Origin: Flavobacteriaceae bacterium LSUCC0859 | GTDB lineage: Bacteria; Bacteroidota; Bacteroidia; Flavobacteriales; Flavobacteriaceae | Assembly: GCA_022239325.1 (NCBI GenBank) | Contig: JAKOGP010000002.1 | Coordinates: 344,862 to 408,861, forward strand | DNA length: 64,000 nt | Direction: 5' to 3' | In this document: positions 4,339 to 19,582 of the stretch, one piece after another | Numbering within the stretch: position 1 is the first letter of the stretch | How the letters are laid out: each line of letters starts with the position of its first letter | Position numbers and translations under genes: made by a program | Notes under the pieces: model-generated | What the model was told of the DNA's origin: nothing | Database searches by the model: none | The model's input: only the letters and a program-made list of their open reading frames with translations

Positions 4339-4878
4339 CTATTTATCCGTTAATAACTTTTTTAGAGCGTCCCAACGCGGGTCTGTCTCTTCTATTTCTT
4401 CTTTTTGTTCTTTCAATTCCTTAACGCCTAGCTTTTCTAAAGTTTCTAAGACCTCAGACTCTAAGCTACCATCTAGCACACCTGGGTGTACTCTTTTGGC
4501 AGGTACTGCCAAAACAACCATCTCATACATATACTGTGCTACGTCTACCTGATGTTCGCCGTGCGGTAGCACCAAGAGCGACTCGTTCTCGTTGTCAAAC
4601 TCGTCTCCAAATTTCACTACCAATTCTATGGCGGCTTCTATGGGTAAATCAAAAGGCTCATTAGTAGTGTCACAGTTAATATTGACGCTTCCAGTGGCTT
4701 TAAAATCCAGCTCCATAAAAGTACTGAGCTTATTTAATACCACAGACACCTGAATGTGAGCAGCATTAAATTCTTCAAAAGCATATGTCGTAAAGAACGT
4801 GTTGTCTAAGGCAAATTCAAAGTGATGCTTTCCATCTTTTAATCCTGAAAAAGGAATGTGATAGTCCCTGTTTTTCAT
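4339..4878 (-). CDS. DUF177 (YceD) family protein
   Basis: A 179-residue cytoplasmic protein of the DUF177/YceD family, linked in bacteria and plastids to 23S rRNA accumulation and large-subunit assembly. It shows the [14 protein letters not shown] strand where the family usually has a CxRC-type motif. Here only one cysteine ([11 protein letters not shown]) is present, so a metal site is not evident. The acidic C-terminus ([17 protein letters not shown]) matches the family's conserved DPRWxxLKKL end. It is immediately upstream of rpmF, and a TATCTTTG promoter box lies 45 bases before its start. Confidence 0.85.
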
Positions 4879-4925
4879 ATTGTATCAGATTTATAGCATA
4901 TCTCTGCTGTGCCAAAAGGCGGGTG

Positions 4926-4933
4926 CAAAGATA
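4926..4933 (-). promoter_or_regulatory. -7 box TATCTTTG for the DUF177-rpmF unit
   Basis: The minus strand reads TATCTTTG, an exact match to the Bacteroidota -7 consensus TAnnTTTG. It lies 47 bases upstream of the DUF177 start codon. No clear -33 TTG was found at the expected spacing. Confidence 0.6.
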
Positions 4934-4973
4934 CTATTATTATACTAATTACCAAGCAATAAGGAAATTAAAA

Positions 4974-6065
4974 TTATTCCTTGTCCTGTGGTTTGGGTTT
5001 GTTTTTTCTGGGCGATCTCTTTTCTACAATTCTGGCCTTTTTTAAGGGGTTTTTAGTGAGCTCCTCAAATTCAGTTCGCTTCTTAAAAATGCGAATGGCT
5101 GCGTGTACCGCCGCTGCAAAAGAATGGTGGTCTGCCAAGCCCTTCCCTGCTATGTCGTAAGCCGTACCGTGATCCGGCGAGGTTCTTACCTTGGAAAGTC
5201 CTGCCGTGAAATTAACCCCATTTCCAAAAGAGAGGGTTTTAAAAGGAATAAGCCCTTGGTCGTGATAGGCTGCTAAAACGGCGTCAAAGGATCGATAGTT
5301 TTTAGATCCAAAAAAACTATCTCCTGCATAGGGTCCGTATACCAAAAGTCCCTCGTCTGACAATGCTTTAATGGCGGGCACCAAAAGCTCATCGTCTTCT
5401 TTGCCAATTACGCCCTGATCTCCATTGTGAGGGTTTATACCCAACAAAGCTATCTTAGGCTTTCTAATTCCAAAATCTTGCTGCAAAGAAGCAATAATGG
5501 TTTTTACTTTAGATTTAATTCTGGAAGGGGTGATGTTTTCTGTCACCTCTTTTACAGCCACATGGTCTGTAAGCAAGCCTATCCTAAGATCTTCAGAAAT
5601 CATAAACATGAGGCTTTCCCCGCCCAATTGAGCCGCTAAATAATCCGTGTGTCCCGGGAACTTAAAATTTTCAGATTGTATGTTGCTTTTGTTAATAGGG
5701 GCTGTAACCAGTACGTCTACCTCTGCAGCTTTGAGGGCTGCTGTTGCCGCTTCTAGAGATTGTAGTGCAAAAGCGCCGCCTTCTTTGGTTTCCATTCCAA
5801 ACTCTATCTCTGGACTGTCTTTCCAGAGGTTTACTACATTAAATTTGCCCTCCATAGCCTGAGAGGCGTGGCTAACACCAGAATAGACTAAATTAGTACC
5901 TAGTTGCTCTTGGTGCTTGGCTAAGGTTTTACTAGAAGCAAAAAGTACCGGGGTGCACAGCTCCAGCATTCTGGGGTCTTCAAAAGTCTTTAAAATAACC
6001 TCTGCACCTATTCCATTTATATCTCCTATGGAAATTCCCACTTTTATTTTTGCGCGATCCTGCAT
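4974..6065 (-). CDS. pdxA: 4-hydroxythreonine-4-phosphate dehydrogenase
   Basis: Oxidises 4-phosphohydroxy-L-threonine to 3-amino-2-oxopropyl phosphate in the DXP-dependent route to pyridoxal phosphate; a divalent-metal, NAD-dependent cytoplasmic enzyme. The 363 residues open with KVGISIGDINGIGAEV. Family metal-binding and substrate motifs are present: FPGHTDYLA near 140, LGINPHNGDQG near 210 and AAYHDQGLIPFK near 265. A basic tail of about 25 residues after AIRIFKKR is longer than usual. It is transcribed leftward ahead of DUF177-rpmF and divergently from ribE, with 59 bases between the two starts. Confidence 0.93.
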   Translation of the reverse strand: MQDRAKIKVGISIGDINGIGAEVILKTFEDPRMLELCTPVLFASSKTLAKHQEQLGTNLVYSGVSHASQAMEGKFNVVNLWKDSPEIEFGMETKEGGAFALQSLEAATAALKAAEVDVLVTAPINKSNIQSENFKFPGHTDYLAAQLGGESLMFMISEDLRIGLLTDHVAVKEVTENITPSRIKSKVKTIIASLQQDFGIRKPKIALLGINPHNGDQGVIGKEDDELLVPAIKALSDEGLLVYGPYAGDSFFGSKNYRSFDAVLAAYHDQGLIPFKTLSFGNGVNFTAGLSKVRTSPDHGTAYDIAGKGLADHHSFAAAVHAAIRIFKKRTEFEELTKNPLKKARIVEKRSPRKNKPKPQDKE

Positions 6066-6124
6066 ACTTTCTAAGGCTTAATCTGTAAATTTACCATGTA
6101 AAATTAGACAAATAAAACGGAACC

Positions 6125-6718
6125 ATGTTTACAGGAATTATTGAAACTTTAGGAAAAGTAGTGGGTATAGAAAGGCAGCAAGGAAATATGGACATCTGTA
6201 TAGAATGTGCCCTGGCCAAAGACCTTAAAATAGACCAATCTGTGGCCCATAATGGGGTGTGTCTCACCGTGGTATCTAAAACAGACAAACAATACACCGT
6301 TACTGCCATAGCAGAAACCCTGGAAAAAACAGCCATTGGCAGCCTTCAAATAGGAGAATTTGTAAACCTAGAACGCGCCATGATTATGGGCAGCCGCTTA
6401 GACGGTCATATAGTGCAGGGGCATGTAGACCAAACTGGTATTTGCACCCAAATTAAAGAAACCGATGGCAGCTGGCTGTTTTCCTTTTCTTATGAAAAAG
6501 GGCCTCAAAATGTCACTATTGAAAAAGGCTCCATTACTATTGACGGTACCAGCCTCACCGTGGTAGACTCTAAAGCCAACTCTTTTAGTGTGGCTATTAT
6601 TCCCTACACTTATGAGCATACCAGATTCAAACAATACAAAATAGGCACCCTGGTGAACCTAGAGTTTGATGTTATTGGGAAATATGTAAAAAGACTTTTA
6701 GAAGTTCGTACAGATTAA
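6125..6718 (+). CDS. ribE: Riboflavin synthase, alpha subunit
   Basis: Dismutates two 6,7-dimethyl-8-ribityllumazine molecules to riboflavin and the pyrimidinedione, the last step of vitamin B2 synthesis. The 197 residues begin with the invariant MFTGIIETLGKV. There are two lumazine-binding beta-barrel repeats: the first with NGVCLTV near residue 40, the second with SITIDGTSLTVV near 140. GHIVQGHVDQTG in the middle is the diagnostic interdomain motif. It is divergent from pdxA, a common flavobacterial arrangement, and convergent with the small DUF2007 gene downstream. Confidence 0.95.
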   Translation: MFTGIIETLGKVVGIERQQGNMDICIECALAKDLKIDQSVAHNGVCLTVVSKTDKQYTVTAIAETLEKTAIGSLQIGEFVNLERAMIMGSRLDGHIVQGHVDQTGICTQIKETDGSWLFSFSYEKGPQNVTIEKGSITIDGTSLTVVDSKANSFSVAIIPYTYEHTRFKQYKIGTLVNLEFDVIGKYVKRLLEVRTD

Positions 6719-16179: not shown

Positions 16180-18696
16180 TTAACGCTGCTGTGGAACTTC
16201 TATCTGATCTCCTAAGAACAAAGCATTTAAAAACAGGCGGTTCATTCCGTAATTTACCCCTCTAAAATTAGGGTTGTCTGCAAACATAATCACCCGACCA
16301 CTTCCTTTTTTACTCACTAAAAGAGACACACTTTTTGGAAAATATTCTTTTAGATTTTTCTCAGAAATATAGCCGTCTAAATGAGGTCTGTCTGTATAGT
16401 TTATTACGGTTCCATAGGGACTCTTGCTCGGTGCCAACCAGACCGTATTGTTTTTGTATAAAGCAATTTCTGAGTGCTTATAACCAAAGGCTAAGGGATG
16501 GCTTAGATCTAGCTGTCCTTTGACAAAAACTCCTCCAATAGCTTCTTTGCCATTATTTTCACCAGCGTCTATATAGGGTTTAGAAACTACCGCTACCGTA
16601 CTGTCTGGTTTTACGGTTACTAGACTTTCCTTTACAAGCCCAGAGCGCACCGCCCAGCTAGAAGCACTACCAATAGTAATTAGAGTATTCCCTGCGCTTA
16701 GCCAAACGGAAAGTCTTTCCTTAAATGATGTAGAAAAAGAATAGCGACCAGAAACCATCACCAGAGTATTGTAAGAGTCCAAAGATATTCTGTCTAAGTT
16801 TCTCACGGGTAATTTAGTAATGGGCATACCCACCCGAGTGTCTAGTAAATGCCACACTTCACCTGCTTCATAAGAAGAGGTTCCGTTACCAATAATCATA
16901 GCGGCCTTTGGCTTGCGAACCGGCCTGATGTTTCTAGATCCTAAATCTACTCCTGCTAGGCTAAAACCTGAGGTAATAGGTCTCACCTGAACCATAAGTT
17001 CTGAAGACATTTGAGCCAATACCCGGTCTAAACTGTCTTTAGATATTTTCTGCAAAGACACCGGGATCATGAGAGAACCATAAGAAAAATCTGCTTTTCC
17101 AGAAGGTGTTTTGGCACTAAACGGCTTATAAGCTGCAGAAAATTGTACCCCGTGTTGCCCTAAGTAATGCATGGCGGCAGGTAAGTGGTAGTCCTGAGCA
17201 TCTATACCATAGGCATAAGTAGCAGACTCAAAATCTGGAACTTTAAAATCCCCAGCAGCGCTTAGAGGAGTTCCAAGGGTGCCCATTTTCTGAACCGCAC
17301 GGTATTTTATATTAAAAAAGTTAGCTACAGACCAAGCACTAGCGTCGTAATAGACAGAGTCTCTGTATTTATCATAGGTCTCAAAAAAGGACTGCACCAT
17401 ACGGTACTGCTCTTGAGAAGTAGGTACCACATAAGAATCCTCTGCTGTTTTGTATACAGACACCTTGTGGGTTTGAAGTTTTTCAATAAAAGCCTTAGCC
17501 TTGTTGCGGTCTGTCTCAGTAAAGGCATATCCTTTTACTTTAGACTGCGCTGCATTGGTGAAGGCACTCTTAAAAAATTCTCGCTGGTAGGTTTTAAGAA
17601 CTGAAGCATTTTCTACTGCTGCTCTTACAGTTGTCATACTAGAAACGTACTGATTTCTTATAGTAAAAGGGAAAGTAATTTCTCCATAGGCTGTAGTTTG
17701 TTTTAATCCCCTTGAGCTGGCTTGCTCAAACAAAAGGGCCAAGCCCCCTTGAAGGTCTGGATAAGAAGAGCCATAGCCCGGATAGGTGCCGTCAAAGGCT
17801 TCCTTGGTAAAATACAAAGACCCAATACTGTCTAAGGCTTTAGAAAAATAACCTGCAAACAAATCATTTAAACTCGTATAATTTTCCTTGGGCATAATTG
17901 GGTCCCAAGAAGCATTGGGCTTCATAGGCTCAAAGAAATACGTGCTTTGAGAACCCATTTCGTGAAAATCAGTCACCACATTGGGGTACCATTTATGAGA
18001 CCAGGCCACCTTGGCTTGGCTCTCTGGGTTTACAGTAAGCAACCAGTCTCTGTTCAGGTCAAACCAATAGTGGTTGGTACGCCCCCCTGGCCAGTATTCA
18101 TTGTGCTCCGCGTCCTGAGGGTCTACTACCAACGGAGAACCCTTGTAGGTGTTGGCCCATTGGGTGTGCCTGTCACGGCCGTCTGGGTTAATGGTTGGGT
18201 CTATAAAAATTACCGCTTTCTCTAAATAGGATGCCACTGCTGCATGCGAAGAAGCACTAAGGGTATAGGCGGTTAGGAGTGCGGCTTCTGAACTTGAGGG
18301 CTCATTCCCATGGACATTGTAAGCTAGGTTAATAATTAAGGGGATGTCTTCCAATACCGGGCTTTTTTCGCCTCTAATTTGTGCCAAATGCGCCTCGCGA
18401 ATCTCCTCCAAACGGGCTAAGTTTTTAGGACTACTCAGCGCCAAAAAAACCAATTTTCTGCCCTCATGGGTCCGGCCATAAGGAATAAGCTGGGCCCTGT
18501 CGCTTTGAGCTGCCAACTGCTCTAAATACCCTACAATTTGATCGTGACGGGTATGCTGGGAGCCAATCCCATAACCCAAATAGGCCTCTGGAGAGGTAAT
18601 TTCAGGGGCAAAAGGAGCATAGTTTTTGAAAAAATAATCTTGGCCAAAAGCCAGGCTGCTACAAAAGAGAAACAGCCATAAAAAATGTCGTGACAT
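16180..18696 (-). CDS. Secreted M14-family zinc carboxypeptidase-like protein
   Basis: An 838-residue exported peptidase. After a signal peptide (MSRHFLWLFLFCSSLAFGQ) the M14 catalytic domain shows the HxxE zinc pair at His129 and Glu132 (YNVHGNEPSSSEA), a later His ligand (VVTDFHEMGSQSTYFF, near 250), and a candidate catalytic Glu in LALLFEQASSRG near 320. A C-terminal half of about 400 residues is beta-rich and has GATase1-like features typical of the large flavobacterial M14 proteins. It lies 100 bases downstream of the gasdermin-like gene on the same strand, but it has a -7-like box of its own (TATCTTTA at 18723-18730), so co-transcription is uncertain. Confidence 0.88.
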   Translation of the reverse strand: MSRHFLWLFLFCSSLAFGQDYFFKNYAPFAPEITSPEAYLGYGIGSQHTRHDQIVGYLEQLAAQSDRAQLIPYGRTHEGRKLVFLALSSPKNLARLEEIREAHLAQIRGEKSPVLEDIPLIINLAYNVHGNEPSSSEAALLTAYTLSASSHAAVASYLEKAVIFIDPTINPDGRDRHTQWANTYKGSPLVVDPQDAEHNEYWPGGRTNHYWFDLNRDWLLTVNPESQAKVAWSHKWYPNVVTDFHEMGSQSTYFFEPMKPNASWDPIMPKENYTSLNDLFAGYFSKALDSIGSLYFTKEAFDGTYPGYGSSYPDLQGGLALLFEQASSRGLKQTTAYGEITFPFTIRNQYVSSMTTVRAAVENASVLKTYQREFFKSAFTNAAQSKVKGYAFTETDRNKAKAFIEKLQTHKVSVYKTAEDSYVVPTSQEQYRMVQSFFETYDKYRDSVYYDASAWSVANFFNIKYRAVQKMGTLGTPLSAAGDFKVPDFESATYAYGIDAQDYHLPAAMHYLGQHGVQFSAAYKPFSAKTPSGKADFSYGSLMIPVSLQKISKDSLDRVLAQMSSELMVQVRPITSGFSLAGVDLGSRNIRPVRKPKAAMIIGNGTSSYEAGEVWHLLDTRVGMPITKLPVRNLDRISLDSYNTLVMVSGRYSFSTSFKERLSVWLSAGNTLITIGSASSWAVRSGLVKESLVTVKPDSTVAVVSKPYIDAGENNGKEAIGGVFVKGQLDLSHPLAFGYKHSEIALYKNNTVWLAPSKSPYGTVINYTDRPHLDGYISEKNLKEYFPKSVSLLVSKKGSGRVIMFADNPNFRGVNYGMNRLFLNALFLGDQIEVPQQR

Positions 18697-18796
18697 GCTT
18701 GGTTATTTAAGGTTTTACCCCTTAAAGATACCAAAGAATTCTCACAGATAGCCCGCGTAATAAAAACAAATCTCAAAAGTTAGAGCGCTAAAGCTT

Positions 18797-19525
18797 TTAA
18801 AAAAAAGCCCGACTATCCGTCACTAAATTGGTCTTGATAAAATGGCCTTTGTCAAAATGGAGTCTATGGGCTTTTACAGCAACTGGAAATAGAGATTTCC
18901 CCTCAGAGACCATTTTTATGGATTTTTCACTTTTTTTAAAGGCATTGAGGGCGCCCTTGGTTTTCTTGTCTACCTCTACAATAAATTCGGGGCTTATCTC
19001 AAAATCTGTGTCTATGGTAATCACCAGATTTTTAGCGAGCAACATGCCGGATATTAAAAGTATTTGGTCTCTATTTGCATGGCTATACAAGCTTGGATTG
19101 GGGTGCAAATAATCTGCCGTATGCATATAGTTTTCAATATGGGCCAGGGGCACCTCTTGGGTTTCTGATCCCTCATAAGCAATACTTACCTTTTCACCTG
19201 AGGAGAACACGCTTTGTAACTCCATTAAATTCAAGCCAAAAGAGTGAAGTAGCACATCTAAGACAGACATTCCCATATTAAACTGATACTCATTTTTATA
19301 GCGAGCAGAAACCTTGAGGGCACTATTGATCTGTGATGTTAAAACTTGCTCAGAACTAAAGGCATGAGAGAGGGTATGATAATATAACTCTGCAGGATTG
19401 CCTGGTTTTTTTAACCACAACTGTAAAAGTTTGTAATTTCTGAGCGGTCCGTTTATTAAATCGTACCCTTGCTCTCTAAGGTGTTTACTCAAATTGGTCA
19501 AAAGAGGTTTTGCTTCCATTTTCAT
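18797..19525 (-). CDS. Putative gasdermin-like (bGSDM-type) protein
   Basis: A 242-residue protein with no signal peptide, no cysteine and no continuous membrane helix. I compared it by eye with the general pattern I remember for bacterial gasdermins: LREQGYDLINGPLRNYKLLQL (residues 16-36) fits their opening GYxLIxxP...KPLQL; INSALKVSARYKNEYQFNMG then SVLDVLLHSFGLN fits the second strand/helix block; EVPLAHIENYMHTADYL fits the LDxYLxxAD helix; and SIKMVSEGKSLFPVAVKAHRLHFDKGHF fits the late S.K...EG....F...A.RL..D.G.F block. A 13-residue tail follows. If right, it is a pore-former held off by its C-terminus and released by proteolysis. There is no caspase-like protease beside it, only a secreted M14 peptidase downstream, and no N-terminal palmitoylation cysteine. 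A -7-like box (TATCTTTA, 19544-19551) precedes it. The alternative is an uncharacterised family. Confidence 0.45.
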   Translation of the reverse strand: MKMEAKPLLTNLSKHLREQGYDLINGPLRNYKLLQLWLKKPGNPAELYYHTLSHAFSSEQVLTSQINSALKVSARYKNEYQFNMGMSVLDVLLHSFGLNLMELQSVFSSGEKVSIAYEGSETQEVPLAHIENYMHTADYLHPNPSLYSHANRDQILLISGMLLAKNLVITIDTDFEISPEFIVEVDKKTKGALNAFKKSEKSIKMVSEGKSLFPVAVKAHRLHFDKGHFIKTNLVTDSRAFF

Positions 19526-19582
19526 TATTTAAAGGGTCTTTATTAAAGATAAGACATCCCGAGTCTCCTCGTATTTTTTAGT

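Follow-up and report, generated by a model that had tools for sequence, protein, structure and literature searches.

A short-tailed, cysteine-free gasdermin of Flavobacteriaceae bacterium LSUCC0859 and its putative C-terminal latch

Gasdermins are the pore-forming proteins behind human inflammatory cell death. Judged by sequence model and predicted fold, a 242-residue protein encoded by Flavobacteriaceae bacterium LSUCC0859 is a genuine bacterial gasdermin, and the rare Bacteroidota clade to which it belongs lacks three things that such proteins usually have: the lipid-bearing cysteine, the greater part of the cleavable tail, and a linked protease. The gasdermin name itself is not new, as an NCBI model already recognises the protein. 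What seems new is the combination of features, which we have not found described. We read the protein as a single-gene latent pore-former that carries a short, conserved C-terminal latch and is released without a dedicated linked protease, an interpretation to which we give about an even chance of being right.

The gasdermin gene and its predicted fold

The gasdermin gene occupies positions 18797..19525 on the minus strand of the 64-kb window, by which we mean the whole stretch of DNA that was analysed. The open reading frame runs from an ATG start at 19525 to 18797 and encodes 242 residues; the plus-strand frame over the same positions is full of stops and contains no open reading frame. The translated protein has no cysteine and no signal peptide, so the length, the missing signal and the missing cysteine described in an earlier, sequence-only reading of this DNA were all borne out by translation. 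The four sequence blocks quoted there are also present, and the chain ends in TDSRAFF. A promoter-like TATCTTTA element, identified as a consensus match only, is located 18 bp before the gasdermin start (19544..19551, minus strand). We take this octamer to be a Bacteroidota -7-like promoter element, and it is also found upstream of the gasdermin gene in the four other carrier species of the genus. A divergent sortilin/VPS10-BNR-type gene starts 169 bp from the gasdermin gene, on the side opposite a gene for an M14 carboxypeptidase.

Dedicated gasdermin models recognised the protein clearly. The NCBIfam equivalog model NF051890 (prok_gasdermin) matched with 105.7 bits and an E-value of 2.7e-30, passing its curated cut-off of 100, and the PADLOC bGSDM model matched with an E-value of 4.3e-20. 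The sequence-only reading had held that the blocks fit the bacterial gasdermin pattern; this was right, with a score well above chance. A Pfam-A search assigned the protein to no family, and phmmer with the single gasdermin sequence found no match among PDB sequences. The PDB gasdermins were reached by a profile of relatives (A2) and not by the single sequence. This profile retrieved bacterial gasdermin chains only (8sl0, 2.8e-8; 7n51, 4.1e-8). When hhalign was used to compare A2 with a single canonical gasdermin, the match was weak.

Structure prediction pointed to the same family. An AlphaFold2 run with 9 sequences (pLDDT 51.6) was replaced by a run with 49 sequences, which yielded a model with a pLDDT of 88.6 and a pTM of 0.83. 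The best eight Foldseek rows obtained with this model were all bacterial gasdermins (7n51, E 4.3e-13, prob 1.00). Using VIA-align, the model superposed on the Vitiosangium gasdermin (7n51) with a Z of 18.2 and an rmsd of 3.5 over 228 of its 242 residues, on the Runella gasdermin with a Z of 16.3, and on the Bradyrhizobium gasdermin with a Z of 14.5. Active bacterial gasdermin forms scored 13.0, eukaryotic gasdermins no more than 12.1, and cholesterol-dependent cytolysins no more than 6.9. Both the bGSDM profiles and the comparison with solved bGSDM structures, two of the checks that the sequence-only reading had proposed, thus came out on the side of a gasdermin.

At about 15% identity, the protein shares its predicted fold, along almost its full length, with the gasdermins of Vitiosangium (7n51), Runella zeae (7n52), and Bradyrhizobium tropiciagri (7n50), and is like them in its NCBIfam and PADLOC family, its presumed cytosolic placement and its single pore domain. 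Unlike these three, the clade protein has no N-terminal cysteine, a C-terminus about 24–27 residues shorter, an invariant terminal Phe, and mostly no linked protease. Most bacterial gasdermins carry an N-terminal palmitoylated cysteine, and their genes often adjoin one for a caspase-like or other protease (PMC9612521). We found no description of protease-free or cysteine-free bacterial gasdermins in a literature search that was incomplete for primary studies, among them work on an 'unclassified Bacteroidetes' gasdermin that may or may not belong to this clade.

The C-terminal end across the clade

Relatives were collected with an alignment-based scan of genome contigs, which yielded 48 related loci in Bacteroidota; a single-sequence scan of the same contigs found none. 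The resulting clade set consisted of 49 distinct intact sequences, and cysteine was absent from 47 of them. Named clade organisms belong to Flavobacteriaceae, to Marinifilaceae and Prolixibacteraceae (Bacteroidales), to Chitinophagaceae, and to Cytophagales, and the clade therefore spans several Bacteroidota orders.

In the clade alignment, residues 213–242 (18800..18889, minus strand) comprise the last core strand (FPVAVKAHRLHFD), a hairpin, and the C-terminal end. Counted from the FPxA motif, 48 of the 49 sequences have exactly 30 residues left before the stop, compared with about 54 residues over the equivalent stretch of the Vitiosangium gasdermin (7n51). All clade members stop at one point, about 25 residues short of the Vitiosangium protein. 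In the LSUCC0859 protein, about 13 conserved residues remain after the final hairpin turn. In the PADLOC bGSDM match, protein residues 12–240 correspond to model positions 6–233 of 257, with 24 positions unmatched. The end consensus is [L/I][V/I]TDxRx-hydrophobic-F-COOH, in which D237 was kept in 48 of 49 sequences and the terminal F242 in every one. On the strength of this conservation, the stretch TDSRAFF (residues 236–242; 18800..18820, minus strand) is our candidate for the latch. An invariant Phe at which every protein stops argues that the C-terminus matters. This part of the tail idea in the sequence-only reading stood, while trimming of the tail by the adjacent M14 enzyme, discussed below, did not.

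Known bacterial gasdermins offer a possible parallel. The Bradyrhizobium gasdermin bears a palmitate on C3 that occupies a hydrophobic tunnel, which a C-terminal phenylalanine caps (PMC9079055), and by analogy we infer that the terminal Phe of the clade may do a similar job. The inhibitory C-terminal peptide of bacterial gasdermins is about 20 residues long (PMC9612521). A short tail is not unprecedented, since published C-terminal parts are said to vary in length between a dozen and about 100 residues (PMC12547243). With the hairpins aligned by eye, F242 falls near Vitiosangium residue 240; the active Vitiosangium construct (8sl0) has 237 residues and the full-length protein (7n51) has 266, which places the end of the clade close to the canonical cut site. 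The structural alignment, taken by its range, runs to residue 263 of 7n51, and on this basis the end could mimic the canonical full tail. We also put forward a bolder proposal, less likely than not to be right: the clade would have no need of a protease, its members would end at the canonical cut and be held by a terminal-Phe latch in place of palmitate and a cleavable tail, and activation by a ligand, lipid, or partner would make each a one-gene suicide module.

It is also conceivable, if doubtful, that control is fully independent of cleavage. The inhibitory tail would then be effectively absent, and dimerisation, a partner, a lipid, or the state of the membrane would control both silence and activation. 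Aligned by inspection, the chain stops within about 3 residues of the point where the active Vitiosangium construct does; no protease is linked to the gene, and many carriers have neither of the two caspase-like families, CHAT and C14. Eukaryotic precedents with solved structures exist as well, as the Trichoplax gasdermin is held by a disulfide-linked homodimer and fungal RCD-1 by allelic pairing, both without cleavage (PMC12547243). The Trichoplax adhaerens protein (8jyv, 8jyw; Z 12.1, 11.1) is single-domain with no large C-terminal domain, and RCD-1 (8jyx, 8jyy, 8jyz; Z 8.6–7.0) is likewise single-domain. However, Trichoplax relies on disulfides, whereas the clade is nearly cysteine-free, and the LSUCC0859 protein, with no cysteines, could form no disulfide-locked dimer. 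RCD-1 requires two different partner gasdermins, whereas the LSUCC0859 genome has one copy. The last residues are also among the most conserved of the protein, which argues for a working tail. Activation independent of cleavage, reported so far for eukaryotic gasdermins, could also operate in this clade.

Caspase-like proteases in carrier genomes

The sequence-only reading had noted the lack of a caspase-like partner. None is linked to the gasdermin gene, and Pfam models detected no CHAT or C14 peptidase anywhere in the 99.76%-complete LSUCC0859 genome. This survey covered the CHAT and C14 families. Neither family was detected in 17 of the 45 carriers tested, LSUCC0859 included; several of these are MAGs or drafts, but they include isolate drafts such as those of Psychroflexus sediminis, Flavobacterium swingsii, and F. 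saccharophilum. A CHAT protein was present somewhere in the genome in 23 of 36 carriers, and C14 in 9 of 36. The genome-wide search, at the threshold used, did not pick up the diverged C14 gene of an Aquimarina carrier (L053), and the counts of weak CHAT and C14 cases may therefore be too low.

A linked protease was absent from most clade loci, with a caspase-like gene near the gasdermin, within the flanking sequence covered, in three relatives (L040, L053, L059). In Pontibacter (L040:2343-6349), genes for a CHAT protein, a predicted alpha/beta hydrolase (GHSLGG motif), and a short-tailed gasdermin follow one another in what looks like an operon, and this CHAT, two genes upstream of the gasdermin, was the only one found in that Pontibacter genome. 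The Pontibacter locus shares the CHAT-hydrolase-gasdermin order with CHAT- and C14-linked gasdermin systems, whereas LSUCC0859 has neither protease. The Aquimarina C14 gene lies about 3.4 kb upstream of the gasdermin, and a Cytophagales MAG (L059) has a CHAT gene about 3.7 kb from it. Consequently, the clade may derive from, or still use, proteolytic systems. A canonical relative (L103) served as a positive control: it has the N-terminal Cys and a long tail, 55 residues when counted from FAF to the C-terminus, and a CHAT gene lies about 2.1 kb downstream of it.

These occurrences bear on the idea that the protein is a conventional proteolytic gasdermin whose C-terminus is trimmed by an unlinked caspase-, trypsin-, or subtilisin-like protease or by a housekeeping one. 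We consider this unlikely. The bacterial gasdermins treated in reviews are activated by proteolysis (PMC9612521, PMC9079055), and the frequency of CHAT and C14 in carrier genomes, with three cases near the gene, would fit such a scheme. Nevertheless, LSUCC0859 and 16 other carriers have neither family, and no protease travels with the gasdermin gene. Only about 13 residues follow the hairpin turn, so cleavage at the canonical distance of about 20 residues from the C-terminus would hit the last strands themselves.

Further matches to the gasdermin model were observed at other loci. Those in G850 (L105:6627-7448) and G502 (L107:7600-8520) are weak and carry lipoprotein-type signal peptides (MKKFLLFLFISFSILSCQ; MKKNLVLICSLALSSLISCK), and the divergent neighbour of the L105 gasdermin-like gene (4655-6574) encodes a 639-aa Peptidase_C14 protein, also with a lipoprotein-like signal. 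These are possibly envelope-anchored gasdermin-like proteins with a caspase partner. In G784 (L104:7411-8040), a 209-aa protein matched the gasdermin model, and the product of the gene two places downstream weakly matches M15 peptidase and peptidoglycan-binding models, an arrangement reminiscent of a holin-endolysin pair.

Distribution, neighbouring genes, and proposed role

Gasdermin matches were found in 5 of the 396 genomes sampled from the order (about 1%). Within the genus, 5 of the 12 genomes examined, representing five species, carry the gene, and it is single-copy in LSUCC0859. Searches of IMG/VR viral contigs and PLSDB plasmids found no relative. Ten close pairs of clade relatives had dN/dS values of 0.01–0.09, indicating strong purifying selection. 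In the tree, Ancylomarina (Bacteroidales) grouped with Polaribacter (support 97/83), which suggests horizontal transfer. In Flavobacterium, the gene often lies between a DUF3754 or DUF4494 gene and an Mpo1-like gene, and in three gasdermin-less Flavobacterium genomes (empty sites L134, L136, and L138) the DUF3754 and Mpo1-like genes are directly adjacent. The gasdermin thus comes and goes as a single gene.

Some loci departed from this simple layout. A Chitinophagaceae MAG contained two clade gasdermins (L049:173-880 and L063:1693-2400) that are 66% identical to each other, and in three Chitinophagaceae loci (L061, L062, L063) the gene after the gasdermin encodes a conserved membrane protein that is hydrophobic and about 310 aa long. 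A two-partner arrangement is possible. A Flavobacteriaceae MAG contained a shortened copy of 116 aa (L066:8004-8354) with both ends kept, the middle missing, and Leu as the last residue, either a decayed gene or an assembly error.

A defence island in the 64-kb window was considered and rejected, as the surrounding genes are those of an ordinary flavobacterial chromosome. PADLOC analysis of 47 neighbour proteins revealed no recurrent defence partner, and its matches were scattered and single (SoFic, caspase, and PDC-series candidates). No recurrent peptidase was found among the diverse, mostly metabolic neighbours outside the genus. Such surroundings could suit another reading, in which the gasdermin fold has been turned to a non-lytic function, for example controlled leakage or secretion; a role of this kind has been discussed for pejvakin. 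We regard it as improbable here, because the patchy distribution and the single-gene gain and loss are typical of defence or conflict genes and not of housekeeping ones.

The sequence-only reading had also reported a secreted M14 carboxypeptidase 100 bases downstream, and the gene is there (16180..18696, minus strand). It shares the strand of the gasdermin, begins 100 bp beyond it, and encodes an M14 zinc carboxypeptidase of 838 aa (PF00246, 5.1e-15); by inspection, the N-terminus of this protein is a signal peptide, MSRHFLWLFLFCSSLAFGQDYF. Five species of the genus share the gene order TonB receptor, Gfo/Idh oxidoreductase, M14, gasdermin, VPS10, with M14 and gasdermin on the same strand and about 93–100 bp apart in all five carriers. 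In one congener the adjoining TonB-dependent receptor gene is broken up into three frames (L012:1508-3569), and it is intact in the others. The M14 gene has a promoter-like TATCTTTA element of its own (18723..18730, minus strand), separate from the gasdermin's copy and kept in all five gasdermin-bearing species as well as in two gasdermin-less congeners (L090, L091); on this ground we rejected a gasdermin-M14 operon. Orthologues with 55–65% identity are found in other gene contexts in four gasdermin-less congeners. The element and these orthologues mark M14 as an independent exported peptidase, which we place outside the system. Carboxypeptidase A-type enzymes prefer aromatic C-termini, and the terminal Phe is invariant across the clade, but the idea that this enzyme trims the Phe and so triggers the gasdermin is very improbable and close to refuted, given in addition that M14 has a signal peptide and the gasdermin none, that no M14 neighbour was present in the relatives' loci examined outside the genus, and that the LSUCC0859 genome holds two further M14 homologues, as expected of a nutrient-scavenging peptidase.

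We return to a latent pore-former encoded by a single gene and closed by its own C-terminus, noting that the likelihoods attached to this reading and to its rivals overlap partly and form no exact partition. On this reading, the cell would produce the gasdermin as a latent monomer in the cytosol, with the predicted fold of a gasdermin pore domain. Its short, strictly conserved C-terminus would replace both the palmitoylated N-terminal cysteine and the cleavable tail of about 20 residues; judging by its invariance and fixed length, this end probably folds back against the rest of the protein and so serves as a built-in latch. Once the latch is displaced or trimmed, hairpins of the protein would enter the inner membrane and a large beta-barrel pore would form there, and the cell would presumably be killed or emptied. 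With no protease encoded beside the gene, and with its gain and loss as one gene, release would come by another route, which could be a general cellular protease, a ligand, a lipid, or a partner encoded elsewhere. Going by the family, the most likely role would be abortive infection against phage.

If this reading is true, a minimal latch can be enough to control a gasdermin pore domain. The clade would then form a link between the gasdermins of bacteria and the cleavage-independent ones of early eukaryotes, and as a one-gene system it would allow a direct search for the trigger.
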